From an uncultured Eubacterium sp. (lineage in GTDB: Bacteria; Bacillota; Clostridia; Lachnospirales; Lachnospiraceae): a stretch of 39,134 bases of DNA. Every line of letters begins with the position of its first letter. Within the stretch, counting starts at the first letter, position 1. The notes under the pieces were generated by a model that saw only the letters and a program-made list of their open reading frames with translations, ran no database searches and was not told the DNA's origin. A program made the position numbers and the translations under genes. Shown one piece after another: positions 21,972 to 31,285 of this stretch. The stretch lies in NCBI GenBank assembly GCA_947089855.1, contig CAMUML010000040.1:1-39134 (forward strand), given 5' to 3'.

Positions 21972-22000
21972 ATTATAACAAAGCATTTTCAAAGTGTCAA
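21972..22000 (-). promoter_or_regulatory. Consensus promoter for the NlpC/P60 gene
   Basis: On the minus strand perfect TTGACA (21995-22000) and perfect TATAAT (21972-21977) are 17 bp apart, leaving about 80 nt of leader. The 386-bp divergent intergenic region to 22272 also holds a 15-bp palindrome ACATAAT-A-ATTATGT (22085-22099) and a CCTCCG/CGGAGG hairpin (22129-22153), possible operators. I see no ydaO-type c-di-AMP riboswitch. Confidence 0.85.
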
Positions 22001-22174
22001 CTGATAGTTCGCACAGATATTAGGAAAAATCGCATATTTTTTAGTGATTTTTACAATTTTCGGTTAGGGGCTTTTCGACAAAAGACATAATAATTATGTA
22101 ATATTTGTATTATTTCTACAAAATATATCCTCCGTTATACAGGTTTTCGGAGGGATTTGTCAAATACAGGGAGA

Positions 22175-22203
22175 TTGCATTTTATGCTTGCGGCAGCTAT
22201 AAT
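22175..22203 (+). promoter_or_regulatory. Promoter for the YjfB-like gene
   Basis: TTGCAT (22175-22180) and TATAAT (22198-22203) are 17 bp apart on the plus strand. The leader of about 60 nt contains a short ACCTA...TAGGT hairpin (about 22222-22238) and ends in a strong AAGGAGG site. Confidence 0.7.
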
Positions 22204-22272
22204 AGAATTGTCGCAGTAAGTACCTAGTTTCTATAGGTGCAGTATATTTATAAAATTTAAGGAGGAACCGAT

Positions 22273-22467
22273 ATGCAGATTAATTCTATGCCGGACATTG
22301 CACTTGCACAGATGCCAAGCCTGTCTACGTCTATGCCAAATGATATTTCCATTGCTATGTTAAGTAAACAGCTGGATCTGTCCCAAGAAATGGGGGATGA
22401 AATGATCAAGGCAATGGCACAGTCCGTAAACCCTAACATCGGCGGCAATATTGACGTATACGCATAA
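22273..22467 (+). CDS. YjfB-family putative motility protein
   Basis: This 64-residue protein resembles the YjfB small-protein family. Its centre ISIAMLSKQLDLSQEMGDEMIKAM and the C-terminal SVNPNIGGNIDVYA match the family's conserved SVNP-xxGxxID ending. The family is called a putative motility protein because members often sit near flagellar genes, but its function is unknown and no flagellar gene occurs here. AAGGAGG precedes the ATG, and a sigma-A-like rather than motility-sigma promoter drives it. It is monocistronic. Confidence 0.8.
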   Translation: MQINSMPDIALAQMPSLSTSMPNDISIAMLSKQLDLSQEMGDEMIKAMAQSVNPNIGGNIDVYA

Positions 22468-22504
22468 AGCCATCCGATAGGCACGCGCCCCTGCCGTTAA
22501 AAAT

Positions 22505-22565
22505 GCCTGGGGCATCTATCCTAATAAGCCGAAAACGGCTATTATTAGAATGGATGCGCCCAGGC
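22505..22565. terminator. Long hairpin between convergent YjfB-like and cvfB genes
   Basis: An imperfect inverted repeat of about 60 bp runs from GCCTGGGGCATC (22505-22516) to its complement (22553-22565) and has an inner GCCG-AAAA-CGGC hairpin. On the minus strand the outer stem is followed by ATTTTTAAC, so it fits a terminator for cvfB, which ends 5 bp away. On the plus strand no T-run follows directly. Confidence 0.65.
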
Positions 22566-22569
22566 AATA

Positions 22570-23403
22570 TTATGCTTTTTGTATCCCGCTTTCTGTGATC
22601 AGAACTTTCCTTTCCTTATATAAACGCCCTACCGCACGTTTAAATGCATTTTTGCTCATCCTCATCTCTTCCTTGATCACCTCTGGCGATGCCTTATCAT
22701 TAAATGGCAGTGCGCCGCCGTTTTTTTCAATCGCCTGCATAATTTTTTCCGCATCGGCATCCATTTGGATATATGCTTTTTGGCGGCAGGTCAGATCCAG
22801 CTTGCCGTCTGGCTTGACGTTGGTAACCTTTGCTTCGATAACATCCCCAATACGGAATCCGGAACAGTCTTCGTAAGAAGGGATCAGGGCTGAATATTTG
22901 TCGTCTACAGCAACGAATGTACCAAAATTATCGCTGAATTCATAAATCCGCCCAGTCACCATATCGTCTTTTTGATAAGGGGAATCCTGCGACAGCAGAT
23001 CATATAAATCCCGCATACTGCCACAAAGCCGGTTGCTTTTGTCAATATACAGCCTGCACATAACCACATCATCTTTTTCAACTGCACGTGTCATCTGCTT
23101 ATACGGAAGGAACAAGTCTTTTTCCAGCCCCCAATCCAAAAAAGCCCCAATATGGCCCACTGAAAGCACTCTTAACGCAGCACATCCGCCAATGGCCAAG
23201 TTTGGCCTATTTGTAGTTGCTATCAACCGGTCTTTGGAATCTTTGTATAAAAAGATTTCCAGTTCGCTGCCAACCTGTGTATCTGGCGGCACCTGCTTTT
23301 TGGGGAGCAGGACACGTGTCTTATCCTGTGGATGCTCTGCCAGGTAGATTCCAAAATCCACCTCTTTGACTACCTCAAGTCTCTGATATTCGCCTAATTT
23401 CAT
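22570..23403 (-). CDS. cvfB: CvfB-type S1 RNA-binding protein
   Basis: This is a 277-residue cytosolic protein. It has repeated S1-like domains (about 5-60, 68-130 with GAFLDWGLEKDLFLPYKQM, and 145-210 with GTFVAVDDKYSALIPSYED). A C-terminal winged-helix domain (about 225-275, with MSKNAFKRAVGRLYKERKVLI) closes it. This is the CvfB architecture known to bind RNA and affect virulence-factor expression in staphylococci. The role here is inferred only from the family. The ATG follows AAAGGAG. The thioesterase gene lies 106 bp upstream on the same strand. Confidence 0.9.
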   Translation of the reverse strand: MKLGEYQRLEVVKEVDFGIYLAEHPQDKTRVLLPKKQVPPDTQVGSELEIFLYKDSKDRLIATTNRPNLAIGGCAALRVLSVGHIGAFLDWGLEKDLFLPYKQMTRAVEKDDVVMCRLYIDKSNRLCGSMRDLYDLLSQDSPYQKDDMVTGRIYEFSDNFGTFVAVDDKYSALIPSYEDCSGFRIGDVIEAKVTNVKPDGKLDLTCRQKAYIQMDADAEKIMQAIEKNGGALPFNDKASPEVIKEEMRMSKNAFKRAVGRLYKERKVLITESGIQKA

Positions 23404-23509
23404 CTATGGCTCCTTTCCCTGTTCGTTTGCCCGCCTGGCCAGTACATCAGCATCCGGGATTATCCGTCCACTAGCAATGCCATACGAGACACAGCCTTTT
23501 TGCTTTGTT

Positions 23510-24220
23510 TTACTCCGCGGCGTAAAATTCGATAACTGCGTATGTTTTTCCATCCTGGCTATCCAGCCTGACCGTAGCCTTATGGCTGCTGCACAGGATA
23601 CATGGGTACAGCAGGTCGCCGCACACTGCAGACTTACAGTATTGGGCATGGATACCGGCTATTTGAAACTCCGGTGCAAGGCATTCCTGGGCCAGCAGGA
23701 TGTATTTTGCATGGTTCATATGATGGTTGGTATCCATAAAATAACGTGGTACCCGAACTGGATCCAAAAATCTCTGTGGTTCAAAACTAGGTATCCGGCG
23801 GCTTTCATATTGCATATCCAGCGGCTTATGCAGCGTATAAGCGGATGCGGCCTGTTCGTCAATCTTTGCTGGCCTGCCCCTTTTTAAATCCAAAAATACC
23901 CATACCGAATTTGCGCATACCAAAAGGCCCCCTGCCTCATCCTCTATTTTAAAATTCCGGTAGCCGTAAAATCCATGAAAATCATAAGGCCACGTCGAAA
24001 TTTTAATTTTCTCGCCAAACTTCGGATAACGGCGGATGTCAGCCTGCAGGCTGTTTAAGATCCATGCCCACTGGTGTGTTTGCATATAGCTGACCCCAAC
24101 ACCTAATTCTTCTGCCTGGAAGGTACAGGCATCCTGCATATAGTTAAAAACATCTGCCAGGCCCGCCTGTCCAGATTCGCTGCATTCGCTGTAGCGGACC
24201 TTTGTTTCTAATGTATACAT
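23510..24220 (-). CDS. Acyl-ACP thioesterase
   Basis: This is a 236-residue double hot-dog enzyme releasing fatty acids from acyl carrier protein. The N-terminal YTLETKVRYSECSESG with FNYMQDACTFQAEELGVG is the usual opening. The second half has DTNHHMNHAKYILLA (the Asn/His active-site strand, about residues 161-175). The longer open frame (to 24544) starts antisense to the acyltransferase gene and is not credible. The ATG at 24220 has AGAGGA upstream, and a promoter ends about 45 bp before it. In Gram-positives such enzymes may tune acyl supply. Confidence 0.88.
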   Translation of the reverse strand: MYTLETKVRYSECSESGQAGLADVFNYMQDACTFQAEELGVGVSYMQTHQWAWILNSLQADIRRYPKFGEKIKISTWPYDFHGFYGYRNFKIEDEAGGLLVCANSVWVFLDLKRGRPAKIDEQAASAYTLHKPLDMQYESRRIPSFEPQRFLDPVRVPRYFMDTNHHMNHAKYILLAQECLAPEFQIAGIHAQYCKSAVCGDLLYPCILCSSHKATVRLDSQDGKTYAVIEFYAAE

Positions 24221-24269
24221 TGCTTGCCCATCCTCTCTTTTAGATACAAAATCCACTTCTATCTTTTCC

Positions 24270-24297
24270 ATTATACTGGATAACGGATAATTCGCAA
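24270..24297 (-). promoter_or_regulatory. Promoter for thioesterase-cvfB
   Basis: On the minus strand TTGCGA (24292-24297) and TATAAT (24270-24275) are 16 bp apart. The -10 overlaps the ATG that would be the next longer start, which supports the shorter coding start at 24220. Confidence 0.6.
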
Positions 24298-24346
24298 GTA
24301 CTTTTCTGATAAACGCACGTGGCAACTTTAAATGGGCACAAACTAT

Positions 24347-24375
24347 TTGACATAAAACACCAGCATTCGTATAAT
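24347..24375 (+). promoter_or_regulatory. Consensus promoter of the acyltransferase-TCS-sulfation operon
   Basis: A perfect TTGACA (24347-24352) and a perfect TATAAT (24370-24375) are 17 bp apart. About 50 nt of leader precede the acyltransferase ATG. It diverges from the thioesterase promoter, about 50 bp away. No clear response-regulator direct repeats are visible around it, and a fully consensus promoter argues for basal expression. Confidence 0.85.
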
Positions 24376-24431
24376 AAAAAAAACTATCAGCGGCAGGGGC
24401 TTTTCTACCTGCATGATTAAGGAGAACAAAT

Positions 24432-25541
24432 ATGAGCAAACCATCTTTATCTGCCCGTAACGGCGCGATTGATTTTTGGAAATTTATTTTTTCGATTATG
24501 GTCGTACAATTCCATTCTTCCAACCTGACCAAAATCAAGTCCACCCCATTTGTAGGCGCTGCAATTGCAGTGGAATTCTTTTTCCTCGTGTCCGGCTATT
24601 TAATGGCAGCTTCCATTATGCGCCGTGAGGAAGCTTCGATCGTTGCCGGGCGCGACAGCCGCAATTTTATGCTGCATAAAATACGTGGATTGTGCCCAGA
24701 GATTTTTATTGCATGGGGTATCGGCTTTTTTGTACAGCACCTGGCCAAAAAAAATGTAACTGGCACTTCTTTGCTCAAAGACCTGATGACTGGCGTGTGG
24801 GACCTATTTTTTTTAAGGGAATCCGGCCTGGAAGGCTTTAAGGCAAACCCTGCTGCCTGGTATATTTCTGCCATGCTGCTTGCCATGCTTGTGCTTGTTC
24901 CCCTATTTTTTATAAATCGTGATTTGTTTTTAAATGTATGGGCGCCTATCCTTGCGATTGGAACGCTTGGATGGCTATCGAAAAACGTAGGCGACCTGCG
25001 CGGCCCGACGGATTGGCTCGGCTTTTGCTACAAAGGCTGGCTGCGCGCTGTCGGTGAATTATGTATGGGCGCCATCTGCTGGGGAATTAGCCAAAAACTA
25101 AAGGGCCTGCCTTTATCCAAATTTGCGGCCAGCATTTGTGCGGGAACGGAACTGGCTTGTTATCTAGGTGTGATTGCGTGGTCTTACCAGCACAAAGGTT
25201 CCCAGATGGATTTTGTAATGCTACTTTTATTTGCTGTCGGCGTTACGGTCACATTTAGCGGCCAGAGCCTATTTTCATCATTTTTTAATAAACCTTTGGT
25301 ATATTTTCTTGGAAAAATCAGTTTTCCAATTTATTTGTCGCATAATTACTGGAGCCATGCGCTGGTCCGTATTTATCCAGGCCAGGCCTATGCACAGCTA
25401 TATCCGAAATATGTGCTCGCAGTGATAATAACTACCATCGTGATCTATGTAACGGCGAAGTGGATGCGTAAAATTGCCCCTGCATTTGTATCCGCCTGCA
25501 AAAAACGGCTTCTGGAACAAGGCCCATCTGCTGGCAAATAA
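24432..25541 (+). CDS. Acyltransferase-3-family integral membrane protein
   Basis: This 369-residue protein has about ten membrane segments. The typical opening RNGAIDFWKFIFSIMVVQFHSS (about residues 9-30, with the family's conserved His) and VEFFFLVSGYLMA (about 47-59) mark acyltransferase 3. These proteins move acyl groups, commonly acetyl, onto exported sugars or lipids. AAGGAG precedes the ATG. It is the first gene of a plus-strand run; the response regulator starts 46 bp downstream. Its substrate is unknown. Co-location with a sulfotransferase suggests that both decorate the same exported molecule. Confidence 0.87.
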   Translation: MSKPSLSARNGAIDFWKFIFSIMVVQFHSSNLTKIKSTPFVGAAIAVEFFFLVSGYLMAASIMRREEASIVAGRDSRNFMLHKIRGLCPEIFIAWGIGFFVQHLAKKNVTGTSLLKDLMTGVWDLFFLRESGLEGFKANPAAWYISAMLLAMLVLVPLFFINRDLFLNVWAPILAIGTLGWLSKNVGDLRGPTDWLGFCYKGWLRAVGELCMGAICWGISQKLKGLPLSKFAASICAGTELACYLGVIAWSYQHKGSQMDFVMLLLFAVGVTVTFSGQSLFSSFFNKPLVYFLGKISFPIYLSHNYWSHALVRIYPGQAYAQLYPKYVLAVIITTIVIYVTAKWMRKIAPAFVSACKKRLLEQGPSAGK

Positions 25542-25587
25542 TTGGATAAACGTGCATAAAACTGGAATACTATTAAAGGGACTTTAT

Positions 25588-26262
25588 ATGAAAATACTGG
25601 TAGTAGAAGATGAAAAAGATATGAACCATATCATAACCAAAGAACTGGAATCCGAAGGCTATCTCGTAGACTCCTGCTACGATGGGGACACCGCCTACGA
25701 TTACCTTACAATGGAAGAATATGACGGTGTAGTACTGGATGTTATGCTTCCCAAAATGAACGGTTTTGAAATCCTCAAAAAAGCCCGCAGCCGCGGCATC
25801 CAGACCCCAGTCTTGTTCCTTTCGGCCCGCAGCCGTGTAGATGATATTGTGGAAGGGCTTGATATTGGCGCGGACGATTATATGGTCAAGCCATTTGCGT
25901 TTCAGGAACTTTCCGCCCGGGTACGTGCAATGACCCGTAAAAAAGCCGGTGTGCGGGAAAATATTTACCGTTGCGGGGACCTGTCCGTGGACTGCAACGA
26001 ACACCTGGTAAAGCGCGGGGAACGGATCGTCAATTTGTCCCCAAAAGAATTTTCCGTGCTTTTATATTTGATCCGGAACCAAAACATTGTCGTTACCAGG
26101 GAACAGATTGAAGCAAATATATGGGACATTGACCATGACAGCTATTCCAATGTGATCGATGTCTATATCCGCTATCTGCGGAAAAAAATTGACGATCCAT
26201 TTCAATTTAAAATGATCCAGACGATCCGAGGGGTGGGATATGTATTAAGGGCACCAGAATGA
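25588..26262 (+). CDS. OmpR-family response regulator
   Basis: This is a 224-residue DNA-binding regulator. The receiver domain (about 1-115) has the phospho-acceptor D51 (VVLDVMLPKMNG), acidic residues near 8-9, S79 and K101 (MVKPF). A winged-helix output domain follows (about 128-222, with NLSPKEFSVLLYLI and VIDVYIRYLRKKID and ending TIRGVGYVLR). The ATG at 25588 has AAAGGGA upstream; the frame extends back into the acyltransferase gene without a site. Its stop codon overlaps the kinase start by 4 bp, so they are an obligate pair. Confidence 0.93.
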   Translation: MKILVVEDEKDMNHIITKELESEGYLVDSCYDGDTAYDYLTMEEYDGVVLDVMLPKMNGFEILKKARSRGIQTPVLFLSARSRVDDIVEGLDIGADDYMVKPFAFQELSARVRAMTRKKAGVRENIYRCGDLSVDCNEHLVKRGERIVNLSPKEFSVLLYLIRNQNIVVTREQIEANIWDIDHDSYSNVIDVYIRYLRKKIDDPFQFKMIQTIRGVGYVLRAPE

Positions 26263-27623
26263 AACAAGTATCTATCGGCCGCCATATCCTCCAGCTATTG
26301 ATCATGGCATTGGCAGCAATGGCAGCCGCTATGCTTATCTTTGTCCATATTTTAGCAAATGTAGCCGTAGAATACGACATTAAACAAAATCTGGACCGCG
26401 AACTATACCAAAATTTAAAAGAAGTCAAAATGGACGAAACAGGCCAGCTCGTATACAGCGACGATTTTATGCTGTCCGAAGGGGACATCCATTTTCTGAT
26501 CTTAGATGATGCCGGGAACGTTTTGTTAGGGGAATACCCCAAAGGATGCCCACAGGATATTGCGCCTGGTACAAAAAAAATGCAGCAGGTTTCACAATCC
26601 GGAGAAACCTATTATATCCGTGATATACGGAAACATGAAATGAACGATACACGTATTTATATGCGCAGCATTGTACGCCGTTCTGACACCTACAGCCGTT
26701 ACCAGACGCTTGAATACTTATCCTGCTTAAGCATCCTGGTTGTATTTGGCATTACCATTTTAAGCGGCATTATCCTGTCCAAGCGTATTTCTAATTCTTT
26801 AAAAGGAATGTGCCATTCCGCAGAATACATCGGACAGAATATGAACATTTCAAAACGTATCGCATACGACGGAAAATTTTATGAGCTGGCTGTGCTGGCA
26901 CAGGCAAATAACCGGATGCTGGACCGTTTGGAAGAAACGTTCCGCCAACAGGAACAATTTACTTCCGACGTCGCACATGAACTACGTACCCCTATCGCAG
27001 TTATGACTGCCCAATGCCAGTATGTACGCGAAAAATCGATTAGCAAGGAAGATTACCAGGAAGCATTTGAAGTAATCGAACGGCAGTCTGCAAAGGTAAG
27101 CGCCATTATTGCCAGACTTTTAGAACTGTCCAGGCTAGACTATGACCGCAGGCAAATACAGGCAGAAGATGTAGACCTTCCAGAAATTGTACAGTCCATC
27201 TGCGAAGACCTGCTGCAAAAATCAGGCGATACCCTCCGTTTTAAACAGCGCCTGTCAGACGCCCATGCCATCGGGGACATTAGCCTAGTCGCAATTGCCG
27301 TACAAAACCTGCTGACCAATGCATCCAAATACGGGGCAGACAGCACCATCGAAGTGGAAACCGGCCTGCGTGAAGATATGGCATATGTAATGGTAAAAGA
27401 CCACGGCCCCGGCATCCAGGAAGAAGATATGGCCCATATTTTTAAACGTTTTTATAAAGCAGATAAATCGAGGAATTCGGAAGGATTCGGGCTTGGGCTG
27501 CCACTGGCAATGAAAATTGCAGAAAAACATGGTGGCACGATACAAGCAGAAAGCAGTTTCGGCGAAGGTTGTATTTTTACGCTCCTGCTGCCTGCAATAG
27601 ATAAAGGGAGAAACCAACTATGA
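26259..27623 (+). CDS. Sensor histidine kinase
   Basis: This is a 454-residue membrane kinase. Two membrane segments (about 13-36 and 153-174) flank an extracytoplasmic loop of about 115 residues with mixed polar content and no recognised fold. After a linker come the dimerisation domain with H240 (SDVAHELRTPI) and the ATPase domain with the N-box NLLTNASKYG (about 350-359), DHGPGI (381-386) and GFGLGL (409-414). It is translationally coupled on both sides, by 4-bp overlaps, to the response regulator and to the APS kinase gene. The last link is unusual and suggests that the signal concerns sulfation. Confidence 0.93.
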   Translation: MKQVSIGRHILQLLIMALAAMAAAMLIFVHILANVAVEYDIKQNLDRELYQNLKEVKMDETGQLVYSDDFMLSEGDIHFLILDDAGNVLLGEYPKGCPQDIAPGTKKMQQVSQSGETYYIRDIRKHEMNDTRIYMRSIVRRSDTYSRYQTLEYLSCLSILVVFGITILSGIILSKRISNSLKGMCHSAEYIGQNMNISKRIAYDGKFYELAVLAQANNRMLDRLEETFRQQEQFTSDVAHELRTPIAVMTAQCQYVREKSISKEDYQEAFEVIERQSAKVSAIIARLLELSRLDYDRRQIQAEDVDLPEIVQSICEDLLQKSGDTLRFKQRLSDAHAIGDISLVAIAVQNLLTNASKYGADSTIEVETGLREDMAYVMVKDHGPGIQEEDMAHIFKRFYKADKSRNSEGFGLGLPLAMKIAEKHGGTIQAESSFGEGCIFTLLLPAIDKGRNQL

Positions 27624-28243
27624 CTGGAAATACCAATGACAGCAGCCGCAACCTTACCTGGCATACAATGGCCATTACCCGCGAGATGCGGGAGGCTGCA
27701 CTTCATCAAAAAGCGGTTACCATATGGCTGACCGGACTTTCCGGTTCCGGAAAGTCTACACTTGCCAACGCACTGGAACAAAAACTGGCTTCTGGCGGCA
27801 GGCATACGATGCTTTTAGACGGCGACAATGTACGCCACGGCTTAAACAAAGACCTCGGGTTTTCCGAACATGACCGTATTGAAAATATCCGCAGGATTGC
27901 CGAAGTATGCCGCCTTCTGAATGACGCCGGCATCATTGTACTGGCTTCTTTTATTTCCCCATTCCGCAAAGACCGGGAACATGCGAGGGAGATTATTGGC
28001 GGCAGCTTTATTGAAGTGTATGTAAGCACCCCATTGGAAGAATGTGAAAGGCGCGACGTAAAAGGGCTGTACCAGGCGGCCCGGAACGGGGAAATTGCAC
28101 AATTTACCGGCATTACCAGTATTTATGAGGCACCTACGCAGCCTGAAGTTACCATAGATACGAGCAGCCGCAGCATTGCGGACAGCACTACAGAATTAAT
28201 GTCAGCATTGGAAACTGTGCTGAACGGAAGGAGCATGGGATGA
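27620..28243 (+). CDS. cysC: Adenylylsulfate (APS) kinase
   Basis: APS kinase phosphorylates adenosine 5'-phosphosulfate to PAPS, the activated sulfate donor. The 207-residue protein has P-loop GLSGSGKST (39-47), the APS-binding DGDNVRHGLNKDLGFS (about 67-82), and SFISPFRKDRE (about 110-120), as in active CysC enzymes. No ATP sulfurylase (Sat or CysDN) and no PAPS reductase is in the window. Directly downstream is a sulfotransferase-like gene overlapping by 4 bp, so the PAPS is likely made for sulfation rather than for assimilation. AGGGAG precedes the ATG, which overlaps the kinase stop. Confidence 0.94.
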   Translation: MTGNTNDSSRNLTWHTMAITREMREAALHQKAVTIWLTGLSGSGKSTLANALEQKLASGGRHTMLLDGDNVRHGLNKDLGFSEHDRIENIRRIAEVCRLLNDAGIIVLASFISPFRKDREHAREIIGGSFIEVYVSTPLEECERRDVKGLYQAARNGEIAQFTGITSIYEAPTQPEVTIDTSSRSIADSTTELMSALETVLNGRSMG

Positions 28244-29343
28244 ACACACTTTACGTACACATCGGCACATCGAAAACCGCAACAACCGCAATCCAGAGTT
28301 TCTGCATTTATAACCGGAAACTGTTAAATCAAAAAGGATATGATTACCCAGATTTTCCATACCGTTACAAAGACGTATCCGAACGGCGTAACGGCCATTT
28401 CTTAATTGCAGAAGATACTTCCAGCGGACGCACCGGTAATTTCTGGGCTGGTATTGACCGGATCCTCCACTTATTCCAGGCTTACCCAAATATTATCCTG
28501 TCTGACGAGGCCATCTGGTCTGCGCCTTACCAAAACCGCATTGATATGTGGAAAGCACTGCGTTCGGAGGCAAAAGAAAACGGTTTTCAAGTAAAAATAA
28601 TTGTATATTTAAGAAGACAGGATACGTACCTGATCTCGGGCTGGAACCAGATGGTAAAAAGCGGCATCGGCAGGGGTGCGGTTATGGCATGGGAAGATTA
28701 TGTCGCAGAACGCGCGGATGCCCATAAACTGAACTATGCTACACATTTAAAAAAGCTTTCGGAACTATGGGGGCGGCAAAACCTGATCGTCCGGCGGTTT
28801 GAACCGAAGCATTTTATCGGTGGCTCTATCCACGCCGATTTCCTCGATGCAGCCGGCCTGAAACTTACAAATGAATATAAATTTGAAGCAGTTGTCCCAA
28901 ACCTTCGTTTAGCTGGAAATACCCATGAAATTAAGCGTGTATTAAATAATATGCCAAATATGACGGCCACTTATGACAGCTTTTTCCGCCGTGCCTTGCT
29001 TTCCTTTACCGAAGCATCCGGATCCGATTATCCAAATGAAATGTTTTCCAAAGCAGAATCCAAAGCATATATGGATAAATTCGCCGACGAAAACCGCAAG
29101 ACGGCACAGGAGTATTTTGGTGAAACGGAACTGTTTGATTTAAAATGGAAAGATATACCAAAGTGGCAAAAAGATAACCCACATATGCAGGATGACCTGA
29201 TCCGGTTTGTGGGTGCCTGTTGTATGCAGCTTTTGGAAGAAAATAAAAAACTGCGCCATGAATTAGATGATCTAAAAGATATGGTACGGCATCCGTTGCG
29301 CACAGCTAGGCAGAAACGGGCCGGAGCCGCAAAACAGCAATAA
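28240..29343 (+). CDS. PAPS-dependent sulfotransferase-like protein
   Basis: This is a 367-residue cytosolic protein. The start LYVHIGTSKTATTAIQ (residues 4-19) is the 5'-phosphosulfate-binding loop of sulfotransferases. IVYLRRQDTYLISGWNQ (121-137) fits the 3'-phosphate-binding strand-helix with its conserved Arg and Ser. The family transfers sulfate from PAPS to sugar, lipid or small-molecule hydroxyls; the acceptor cannot be read here. The C-terminus is a short coiled coil (about 328-345) followed by a strongly basic tail (HPLRTARQKRAG), perhaps for membrane or partner contact. GGAAGGAG lies 6 nt upstream of the ATG, which overlaps the cysC stop. Confidence 0.82.
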   Translation: MNTLYVHIGTSKTATTAIQSFCIYNRKLLNQKGYDYPDFPYRYKDVSERRNGHFLIAEDTSSGRTGNFWAGIDRILHLFQAYPNIILSDEAIWSAPYQNRIDMWKALRSEAKENGFQVKIIVYLRRQDTYLISGWNQMVKSGIGRGAVMAWEDYVAERADAHKLNYATHLKKLSELWGRQNLIVRRFEPKHFIGGSIHADFLDAAGLKLTNEYKFEAVVPNLRLAGNTHEIKRVLNNMPNMTATYDSFFRRALLSFTEASGSDYPNEMFSKAESKAYMDKFADENRKTAQEYFGETELFDLKWKDIPKWQKDNPHMQDDLIRFVGACCMQLLEENKKLRHELDDLKDMVRHPLRTARQKRAGAAKQQ

Positions 29344-29358
29344 AGGGTATCTAAAACC

Positions 29359-29382
29359 GGGGAGGGGCTGTAATCCCTCCCC
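29359..29382. terminator. Terminator between convergent sulfotransferase and amt genes
   Basis: A perfect 8-bp GC-rich stem GGGGAGGG/CCCTCCCC (29359-29366 and 29375-29382) with an 8-nt loop lies 15 bp after the sulfotransferase stop. On the minus strand it is followed by GGTTTTAG, so it best serves amt. On the plus strand no T-run follows, though position and stem suggest it ends the sulfation operon as well. Confidence 0.7.
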
Positions 29383-29413
29383 AACTATATAAAAATGTGC
29401 AGCCTATGCGTTG

Positions 29414-31147
29414 TTACTCTACATCCCGCAAGGCATCCCTGTTTTCTTCCCCAGTACGGATTTTTACTACCCTTGCAACCTGGAAGACGAAGATCTTGCC
29501 ATCCCCGATATGCCCAGTGTACAGTGCTTTTTTAGCAGCAGCAATCACATCATCTACCGGAATTTTACTTACAACGACTTCTATTTTTACTTTAGGCAGC
29601 AACGTAGCATCCATCTCTACACCGCGGTAATATTCGCCTGCGCCTTTCTGGATACCGCAGCCCATAACCTGCGTTACGGTCATACCAGTTACGCCAAGGT
29701 CATTCAAAGCTTTTTTCAGCTTATCAAAACGCGATAATTTGGCTACGACAGCCACTTTATACATACCTGTTTGCACAAGCCCGCCTACTGTATCCGCTCC
29801 ATTTTCCAAGCCTATCCGTTCCACCGGAACCGCTGCATTTAACTGTGCCGGTGTCGCTGCCAGAGGGTTGTCTTCCCCAAGGTCTGTATTTTCATTTATG
29901 TCCATCGTCCCTGTAACGTCATGGATGGCAAACCCAGAATATGCGCTGGCCAGCCCATGTTCATGCAGGTCAAGGCCATCGATTTCGATTTCCTGTTCTA
30001 CACGCAGCCCGATTGTATGTTTAATCAGCTGGAAAATAATAACCATCATAATCCCAGCCCATGCAGCTACTGACAATACGCCTATTGCCTGGATACCCAG
30101 CATTTTAAACCCGCCGCCGTAAAACAGGCCGCCATCTGTTGCAAACAGGCCAACTGCCAGCGTACCGAACATACCGCAGGCCCCATGTACGGAAACCGCG
30201 CCGACCGGGTCGTCTATTTTTGCTATTTTATCAAAAAATTCTACTGATGCTACGACCAGCCCACCAGCGGCCAAACCTATGAAAAATGCGCCAAACGGGT
30301 CAACTACATCGCATCCTGCCGTAATTGCTACCAAACCGGCCAACGCACCGTTTAAACACATCGATACATCTGGTTTTTTATAAAGGATCCAAGTAACTGC
30401 CAAAACGACGCAGGTAGCAACTGCTGCTGCCATATTGGTGTTCATAAAGATCAAAGACGCTGAAAGCACTGCTTCATCGGAACTCATGGATACGGTAGAA
30501 CACCCATTAAAACCAAACCAGCAAAACCAAAGGATAAAGACACCCAGCGCCACAGCAGTCAGGTTATGGCCAGGAATTGCACGTGGCTTTCCATCTTTGC
30601 CGTATTTCCCAATACGAGGGCCAAGCGTCGCCGCCCCGATGCAGGCTGCTACACCGCCTACCATATGTACGGCACAAGAACCTGCAAAATCGTGGAAACC
30701 CAGTCCGGCCAGCCAGCCGCCACCCCAAATCCAATGTCCTGAAACTGGATATACCACTAAGGAAATTAAAGCACTATATACGCAATAAGAACTAAATTTG
30801 GTACGTTCCGCCATCGACCCTGATACAATCGTGGCTGCGGTTGCACAAAAAACGGTCTGGAAAATCACATAACACCATTTTGGAAGGGACCCAAAATCAT
30901 AATCCCCCAATATAAATGGGTCAAACCCGCCAACCAGAGCGCCGGAACCGCCAAACATAATTCCAAAACCAACCAGCCAATAGGCCGGTGTACCGATACA
31001 AAAATCCATCAGGTTTTTCATCAAAATATTCCCTGTATTTTTTGCCCTTGTAAGCCCTGCTTCACACAGGGAAAAACCGGCCTGCATAAAGAATACCATA
31101 GCGGCCCCGATTAAGGTCCACATCACATCCACAGATACATAAGTCAT
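29414..31147 (-). CDS. amt: Ammonium transporter fused to a P-II domain
   Basis: This is a 577-residue protein. Residues 1-400 form an Amt/Mep/Rh channel with about eleven segments. Hallmarks are GFSLCEAGLTRAKNT, SGSMAERTKFSSY, the pore-type HMVGGVAA (conserved His) and VSVHGACGMFG (second His). A polar linker (about 400-460) leads to a complete P-II domain (about 462-577) with a T-loop QKGAGEYYRGVEMD and the C-terminal GHIGDGKIFVFQV...RTGE. P-II normally blocks Amt as a separate protein sensing ATP/ADP and 2-oxoglutarate, and here it is tethered. The ATG at 31147 follows AAAGGAGG; the upstream extension lacks a site. Confidence 0.94.
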   Translation of the reverse strand: MTYVSVDVMWTLIGAAMVFFMQAGFSLCEAGLTRAKNTGNILMKNLMDFCIGTPAYWLVGFGIMFGGSGALVGGFDPFILGDYDFGSLPKWCYVIFQTVFCATAATIVSGSMAERTKFSSYCVYSALISLVVYPVSGHWIWGGGWLAGLGFHDFAGSCAVHMVGGVAACIGAATLGPRIGKYGKDGKPRAIPGHNLTAVALGVFILWFCWFGFNGCSTVSMSSDEAVLSASLIFMNTNMAAAVATCVVLAVTWILYKKPDVSMCLNGALAGLVAITAGCDVVDPFGAFFIGLAAGGLVVASVEFFDKIAKIDDPVGAVSVHGACGMFGTLAVGLFATDGGLFYGGGFKMLGIQAIGVLSVAAWAGIMMVIIFQLIKHTIGLRVEQEIEIDGLDLHEHGLASAYSGFAIHDVTGTMDINENTDLGEDNPLAATPAQLNAAVPVERIGLENGADTVGGLVQTGMYKVAVVAKLSRFDKLKKALNDLGVTGMTVTQVMGCGIQKGAGEYYRGVEMDATLLPKVKIEVVVSKIPVDDVIAAAKKALYTGHIGDGKIFVFQVARVVKIRTGEENRDALRDVE

Positions 31148-31285
31148 ACTTTTTTCCTCCTTTAAACTGCAAATAACTGCCGCATTCCAAACAAGCTGGG
31201 CTGCTGCAAATAAAAAAGGTACAATTACCAAAAATCCGCGGCTTTGCGGCTCCAGCATTGTACCTTATTTTATAGGAAGAAACAA

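Follow-up and report, generated by a model that had tools for sequence, protein, structure and literature searches.

A conserved, predicted Lachnospiraceae operon joins a two-component pair to an APS kinase and a predicted sulfotransferase

We analyzed a 39,134-nt stretch of DNA from an uncultured Eubacterium sp. of the Lachnospiraceae (hereafter, the window), which is one of the 101 contigs making up a 4.08-Mb genome that is 89.7% complete. Its plus strand carries a predicted five-gene operon encoding, in this order, a membrane acyltransferase (AT3), a response regulator (RR), a sensor histidine kinase (HK), the adenosine 5'-phosphosulfate (APS) kinase CysC and a predicted sulfotransferase (ST) dependent on 3'-phosphoadenosine 5'-phosphosulfate (PAPS). 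The gene set is real, conserved and functionally coherent. Its pairing of PAPS synthesis with a sulfotransferase is a known one; what sets it apart is the built-in signalling pair, together with an unusual, apparent relocation of the APS kinase. We hypothesize, with a probability of roughly 0.6, that the operon responds to a signal, produces PAPS and uses it to sulfate a glycan of the envelope, under the control of its own regulator.

In our model, a single transcript starting at 24347 would encode the two-component pair, the last enzyme of PAPS synthesis, the sulfotransferase and the membrane O-acyltransferase. APS would be supplied by CysDN, encoded elsewhere beside housekeeping genes, and CysC would convert it to PAPS only while the operon is on. 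ST would then transfer sulfate from PAPS, on the cytoplasmic side, to the precursor of a cell-envelope glycan, probably a teichoic-acid-type polymer or another wall or surface glycan, and AT3 may acylate the same polymer or a neighbouring one. The sensor kinase would read an extracytoplasmic cue and RR would adjust the operon to it, so that surface charge would follow the signal.

Layout and conservation of the five-gene operon

A sequence-only reading of this DNA had described a perfect sigma-A promoter, a plus-strand run of five genes with three successive ATGA overlaps and a GC-rich stem past the last gene (Table 1). These observations were confirmed, and its interpretation is partly supported. 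Among the promoter sites listed for positions 22000-31000, the one upstream of AT3 is the sole 12/12 match. Sites of at least 9/12 are not over-represented as a class in that interval (19 observed vs 17.8 in shuffles), so the promoter call rests on the perfection of the site, its place and a TG-preceded TATAAT, which is found shortly upstream of AT3 in six of seven relatives and in a poorer version in the seventh (G008). The overlaps fall at the RR/HK, HK/CysC and CysC/ST junctions, and 46 nt separate AT3 from RR. Beyond ST, the 70-nt stretch 29341-29410 folds with -22.8 kcal/mol (z -2.19; 4 of 200 shuffles equally good); the 9-bp hairpin would be a weak or non-canonical terminator because it has no T run. 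AT3 is an acyltransferase by PF01757, above the cut-off, while RR (REC plus winged helix) and HK (HisKA plus HATPase, with intact boxes) form a pair of the OmpR/EnvZ type.

Table 1. Operon features in the window, with positions counted from its first nucleotide
Feature	Position	Strand	Basis
Sigma-A promoter TTGACA-17-TATAAT	24347..24375	+	12/12 consensus match, 17-nt spacer
AT3, acyltransferase-3 membrane O-acyltransferase, 369 aa	24432..25541	+	PF01757 2.3e-22, 79.9 bits vs cut-off 31
RR, OmpR-type response regulator, 224 aa	25588..26262	+	PF00072 and PF00486 over cut-offs
HK, membrane sensor histidine kinase, 454 aa	26259..27623	+	PF00512 and PF02518 over cut-offs; N-terminal sensor stretch ~35-150
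CysC, APS kinase, predicted PAPS maker, 207 aa	27620..28243	+	PF01583 1.9e-68; TIGR00455 253.2 bits vs cut-off 138.7
ST, predicted PAPS-dependent sulfotransferase, carbohydrate (NST/3-OST-like) fold, 367 aa	28240..29343	+	Conserved loop and modelled fold
GC-rich hairpin, 9 bp, possible terminator, no T run	29359..29382	+	Fold energy of 29341-29410

We compared 13 genomes of the genus, in which genes outside the window were called as longest open reading frames (ORFs). The five-gene order is not confined to one strain: seven of the 13 genomes carry it in full (the window's own, G001 to G005 and G009). AT3 heads the gene run in eight, and the arrangement in G008 is AT3-RR-HK-ST-ST. Three genomes (G006, G007 and G011) have ST with no operon-type RR-HK pair alongside, the nearer copy in G007 (locus L064) being fragmented, and neither G010 nor G012 yields an ST at E 0.001. 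Among relatives, AT3 and RR are 20-151 nt apart (312 nt in G008), the HK/CysC junction ranges from -23 to 110 nt and the CysC/ST junction from -4 to 44 nt, with the ATGA overlap at the latter retained only in G002 and G003. The RR/HK junction was placed in three of eight genomes, the kinase start being unresolved in the other five.

ST is broken in G001, which is Eubacterium plexicaudatum ASF492, one of the strains that make up the defined Altered Schaedler Flora. The gene lies in pieces at L063 and L130, both from this strain, where the remaining operon genes are open. Since the ASF492 operon carries a broken sulfotransferase, relatives with intact and with broken ST can be compared.

A predicted sulfotransferase that keeps company with PAPS genes

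No Pfam or NCBIfam model matched the ST protein at 0.001, nor did PF00685 (Sulfotransfer_1) at 0.01; that family was matched at <=0.01 by 6 of 66 ST homologues, at best with 7.6e-5. A sequence search of solved structures with the protein returned no match, and one with the ST profile gave a single chance-level row (E 0.82). The AlphaFold model (pLDDT 95) resembles sulfotransferases, the heparan-sulfate enzymes best, and 50 of 50 among the matches listed by the VIA structural comparison are sulfotransferases. The last protein had been said to carry a PAPS-binding loop; the residues of this loop are conserved across 66 sequences (the window protein aligned with 65 of 83 full-length ST references) and are consistent with the fold, and the claim survives in the homologues as well. 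By modelled fold and by what we take to be the 5'-phosphosulfate loop and the 3'-phosphate motif, ST is therefore a predicted PAPS-dependent sulfotransferase.

For the predicted transfer of sulfate from PAPS, we turned to the gene's genetic company. We searched 150 family genomes, drawn evenly and covering 149 genera, for ST at E<=1e-15 and for APS kinase at E<=1e-40, weaker kinases being uncounted. ST was found in 11 genomes and APS kinase in 24. All 11 genomes with ST have an APS kinase, as do 13 of the 139 without it (Fisher 1.7e-10, uncorrected for phylogeny), and the two genes lie <=3 kb apart in nine of the 11, the exceptions being G114 and G179. The only ST copy of G163 has internal stops.

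We then examined 80 ST loci, the best of at least 345 relatives and so the nearest ones, not a random sample; at one of them (L155) the ORF calling used gave no ST ORF. PAPS genes share a gene run with ST at 31 of the 80 loci, and an RR at least 50% identical to that of the window does so at 15. Ten of these 15 lie outside the genus, eight at 62-75% identity and two (L163, L169) at 52-55%. Thus, the tie of the signalling pair to sulfotransferase and PAPS genes, proposed from the window alone, is a recurrent link in other genera. At six further loci or more (L117, L124, L159, L162, L165, L166) a different, more distant RR-HK pair adjoins ST. Twenty loci hold two or more STs, and an AT3 resembling that of the window occurs only at the five loci of the genus. 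The other named relatives are mostly Lachnospiraceae, Eubacterium, Roseburia, Blautia and uncultured Clostridia, the majority being metagenome assemblies. A second OmpR-type regulator follows ST at L100, L102, L108, L110 and L139; in L110, the one tested, its receiver domain scores slightly below the Pfam cut-off and is perhaps atypical.

Signal and substrate

The pair does not reach the NCBIfam subfamily cut-offs of the CzcRS/CusRS heavy-metal systems: RR scores 229.1 bits where 279.2 are required, with cztR/silR/copR as its closest subfamily, and HK 191.4 bits where 292.55 are required. The catalytic boxes of HK are intact and its fold is a kinase core; its model is weak (pLDDT 73.6), and the VIA matches listed are dominated by the kinase core, so that no sensor class was assigned. 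On a tree of kinases, from which five loci duplicating named ones and HKs below 120 bits were omitted, the ST-linked kinases cluster (4 changes vs a shuffled mean of 8.8, 0 of 500 shuffles as low), a result that is aided by near-copies within the genus and comes with weak deep support and some long branches.

Several observations weigh against the reading that we prefer. Across the family, the kinase at E 1e-75 or better occurs in 8 of 397 genomes, the window's own included, and among the other seven only G154 and G330 have ST adjoining it, in G330 as a 286-aa ORF. The two-component clade is not exclusive to sulfation, as it also stands by wall hydrolases and acyltransferases without ST. At 65 of the 80 ST loci no such RR shares the run, and the 52-55% identity of two of the 15 that do is the level of regulators away from ST. 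When the sequences preceding AT3 in eight genomes are aligned, the promoter and the ribosome site alone stand out, with no regulator box. Foldseek alone gave one match at E<=0.001 for ST (3rnl), the rest including P-loop kinases and GTPases. Finally, no glycosyltransferase is present in the operon or among the flanking genes tested.

The strongest rival, which we rate at slightly less than even odds, is a general envelope-stress two-component system that mainly controls other wall genes, with sulfation as one of many outputs. Close HK orthologues adjoin a GH25 muramidase in G069 (by Pfam; this genome carries STs at other loci) and a protein with a like start in G378. The orthologue of G350 adjoins a choline-binding/CHAP protein, and that of G320 lies near DUF4886/Big_2 proteins with GT2, MBOAT, an AMP-ligase and a carrier protein, an acylation-type set; in G194 the neighbours, which were not scanned with Pfam, include nothing telling. 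Such neighbours fit an envelope sensor with outputs that include sulfation and acylation. In contrast, the short HK/CysC and CysC/ST gaps in the operon carriers of the genus and the clustering of ST-linked kinases, to which near-copies contribute, count against this rival. The G320 neighbourhood, at L212:949-13108, resembles a Dlt acylation set: besides the orthologous RR-HK it holds the MBOAT, the carrier protein and the AMP-ligase, the last with a nitroreductase domain.

The proposed substrate, an envelope glycan, draws on the neighbours of ST relatives, which include CDP-glycerol glycerophosphotransferases, cytidylyltransferases of the IspD/TarI and TagD types and pyruvyl transferases. By BLAST, teichoic-type genes lie <=3 kb from ST at 9 of the 80 loci (at L097 the only such gene is IspD-like). 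The ST loci contain 18 TagBF-like genes over 1290 kb, as against none over the 337 kb of 22 control loci; this control is small and unmatched, which tempers the enrichment. No teichoic-type gene was found next to the operon in its own genome, and the proposed substrate is therefore an extrapolation from remote homologues. The five-gene run and the three flanking genes scanned with Pfam (an acyl-ACP thioesterase, a CvfB-like gene and AmtB-PII) contain no polymer synthesis genes of the kind that make up the xss exopolysaccharide cluster. L141 and L148 hold five-ST arrays adjoining teichoic-type genes. Convergent with the operon, window positions 29414-31258 on the minus strand encode an ammonium transporter fused to a P-II domain (PF00909 and PF00543).

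Alternatively, ST could act on a small molecule in the gut, such as a lipid, sterol, bile acid or phenol, and not on a polymer. Gut Bacteroides are known to sulfate cholesterol, and the operon's lack of a glycosyltransferase would suit this idea, which we consider unlikely.

If an envelope glycan is sulfated, the sulfated surface polymers of Gram-positive gut commensals would alter charge, the binding of phages and antibodies and recognition by host lectins, and would supply the gut with sulfated glycans of bacterial origin.

PAPS supply and comparison with known systems

CysC had been called an APS kinase from its sequence, and its scores above the curated cut-offs of PF01583 and TIGR00455, with alignment to solved APS kinases along residues 9-199 (nearest 1d6j, 8.4e-56), bear this out. 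It is the genome's only APS kinase match at E<=0.001. The sole ATP sulfurylase found, whose whereabouts the sequence-only reading had raised as a question, is CysDN on contig C5, separate from the operon contig. Its neighbours are phosphatidylserine decarboxylase, a Na/Pi-type transporter, shikimate genes and spoIIIA, with no assimilation genes alongside. A Sat-type ATP sulfurylase was not found in this genome and occurs in one of the 13 (G012). The five-gene run lacks an APS/PAPS reductase and an ATP sulfurylase and does not qualify as a sulfate assimilation operon. No clear CysH was found in the 89.7% complete genome (AprA was not searched for). Sulfation, and not cysteine synthesis, is thus the better supported purpose, as had been suspected. 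That CysC serves assimilation beside an unrelated P-loop protein is very improbable: it is the only APS kinase found, PAPS can feed reductases, one sulfite/nitrite-reductase-type protein is present and Foldseek also returns P-loop kinases with weak scores, but the only PF01507 match besides CysD is a weak, two-piece one in a 431-aa protein, CysH is not evident, ST and APS kinase occur together in 11/11 genomes and the 50 VIA matches listed are all sulfotransferases.

Wherever the five-gene operon is complete in order, in seven genomes, the C terminus of CysN is a 157-residue domain in place of an APS kinase domain; this domain has no Pfam match at 0.01. In the window's genome it lies at L054:7617-8087. 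Five other genomes of the genus (G006, G007, G008, G011 and G012, where a contig end cuts it) encode a CysNC fusion, and in these no operon-type single CysC was found, nor any beside the ST loci examined. G010 has neither form. More distant proteins resembling APS kinase, at 95-127 bits, are encoded in G001, G005, G007, G011 and G012 and not in the window's genome. In an unrooted tree made by a quick method, omitting five loci that duplicate named ones and matches below 150 residues, the single CysC proteins of the seven genomes group together as one clade (SH-aLRT 98), placed among CysNC kinase domains. Unlike in the bifunctional CysNC enzymes that it resembles, the operon's APS kinase is a separate protein within a signalling operon, and CysN bears another C-terminal domain. 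Read simply, these sequences would mean that CysNC was split and its kinase relocated to the signalling operon, although the change may have run in the opposite direction. An apparent fission of this kind, with the 157-residue domain on CysN, offers a case in which the placing of metabolic flux under a sensor could be tested.

We tentatively extend this, at odds somewhat below those of the envelope-stress rival, to a broader proposal: that gut Lachnospiraceae sulfate a wall teichoic-acid-type polymer on a dedicated signal, and that one genus moved the APS-kinase domain off CysNC into a two-component operon, a new 157-residue domain taking its place on CysN, so that PAPS is made only for surface sulfation.

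As an uptake route, the chromate/sulfate-type transporter was rejected, with no match in the window's genome and matches in 3 of the 13. It stands between two STs in G011, and BLAST homologues lie within 3 kb of STs at 5 of the 80 loci. Such transporters near ST and PAPS genes at L105, L117, L159 and L062 perhaps import sulfate; PF02417 was confirmed for L062, L105 and L117, and the L159 protein was judged by N-terminal likeness. A PF02690 Na/Pi-type transporter follows CysDN in five genomes and, as a guess, could be a sulfate importer.

In the open-access literature, with subscription journals and preprints outside the search, we found no account of such a Lachnospiraceae operon among the entries listed, as judged by titles and the starts of abstracts. 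The heparan sulfate N- and 3-O-sulfotransferases (9f6z, 6xkg, 1nst), which the ST model matches best, are animal enzymes with 10-15% identity to it. PAPS genes with sulfotransferases are described, in one report, as a hallmark of sulfated polysaccharide clusters (PMC11641403). The capsule clusters of Cobetia marina and Vibrio sp. KMM 8419 share this trait, but are large marine ABC-transporter clusters, for which the accessible text mentions no two-component pair (PMC11766843, PMC11641403).

Cyanobacteria offer a precedent for placing a sulfated polysaccharide under a two-component system: in Synechocystis, the cluster for the exopolysaccharide synechan, with two sulfotransferases, is controlled by the XssS/XssR/XssQ chain (PMC8205485). 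As here, sulfotransferases and a kinase/regulator pair (XssS/XssR) share a cluster; however, xss has eight glycosyltransferases, Wzx/Wzy and the STAND activator XssQ, and the available text names no PAPS-synthesis gene (PMC8205485). The operon in the window instead holds an APS kinase and an acyltransferase, without polymer synthesis genes.

RaxST of Xanthomonas is a sulfotransferase. The raxSTAB genes border a cluster that includes a two-component pair, but the clusters are separate and the product is a secreted sulfopeptide, RaxX; the effects of raxH and raxR on raxSTAB are described there as subtle and perhaps indirect (PMC8306577). For surface polysaccharide in V. vulnificus, a second-messenger role of PAPS itself has been proposed (PMC6113621), so a PAPS-making operon such as the one described here could feed back on signalling.

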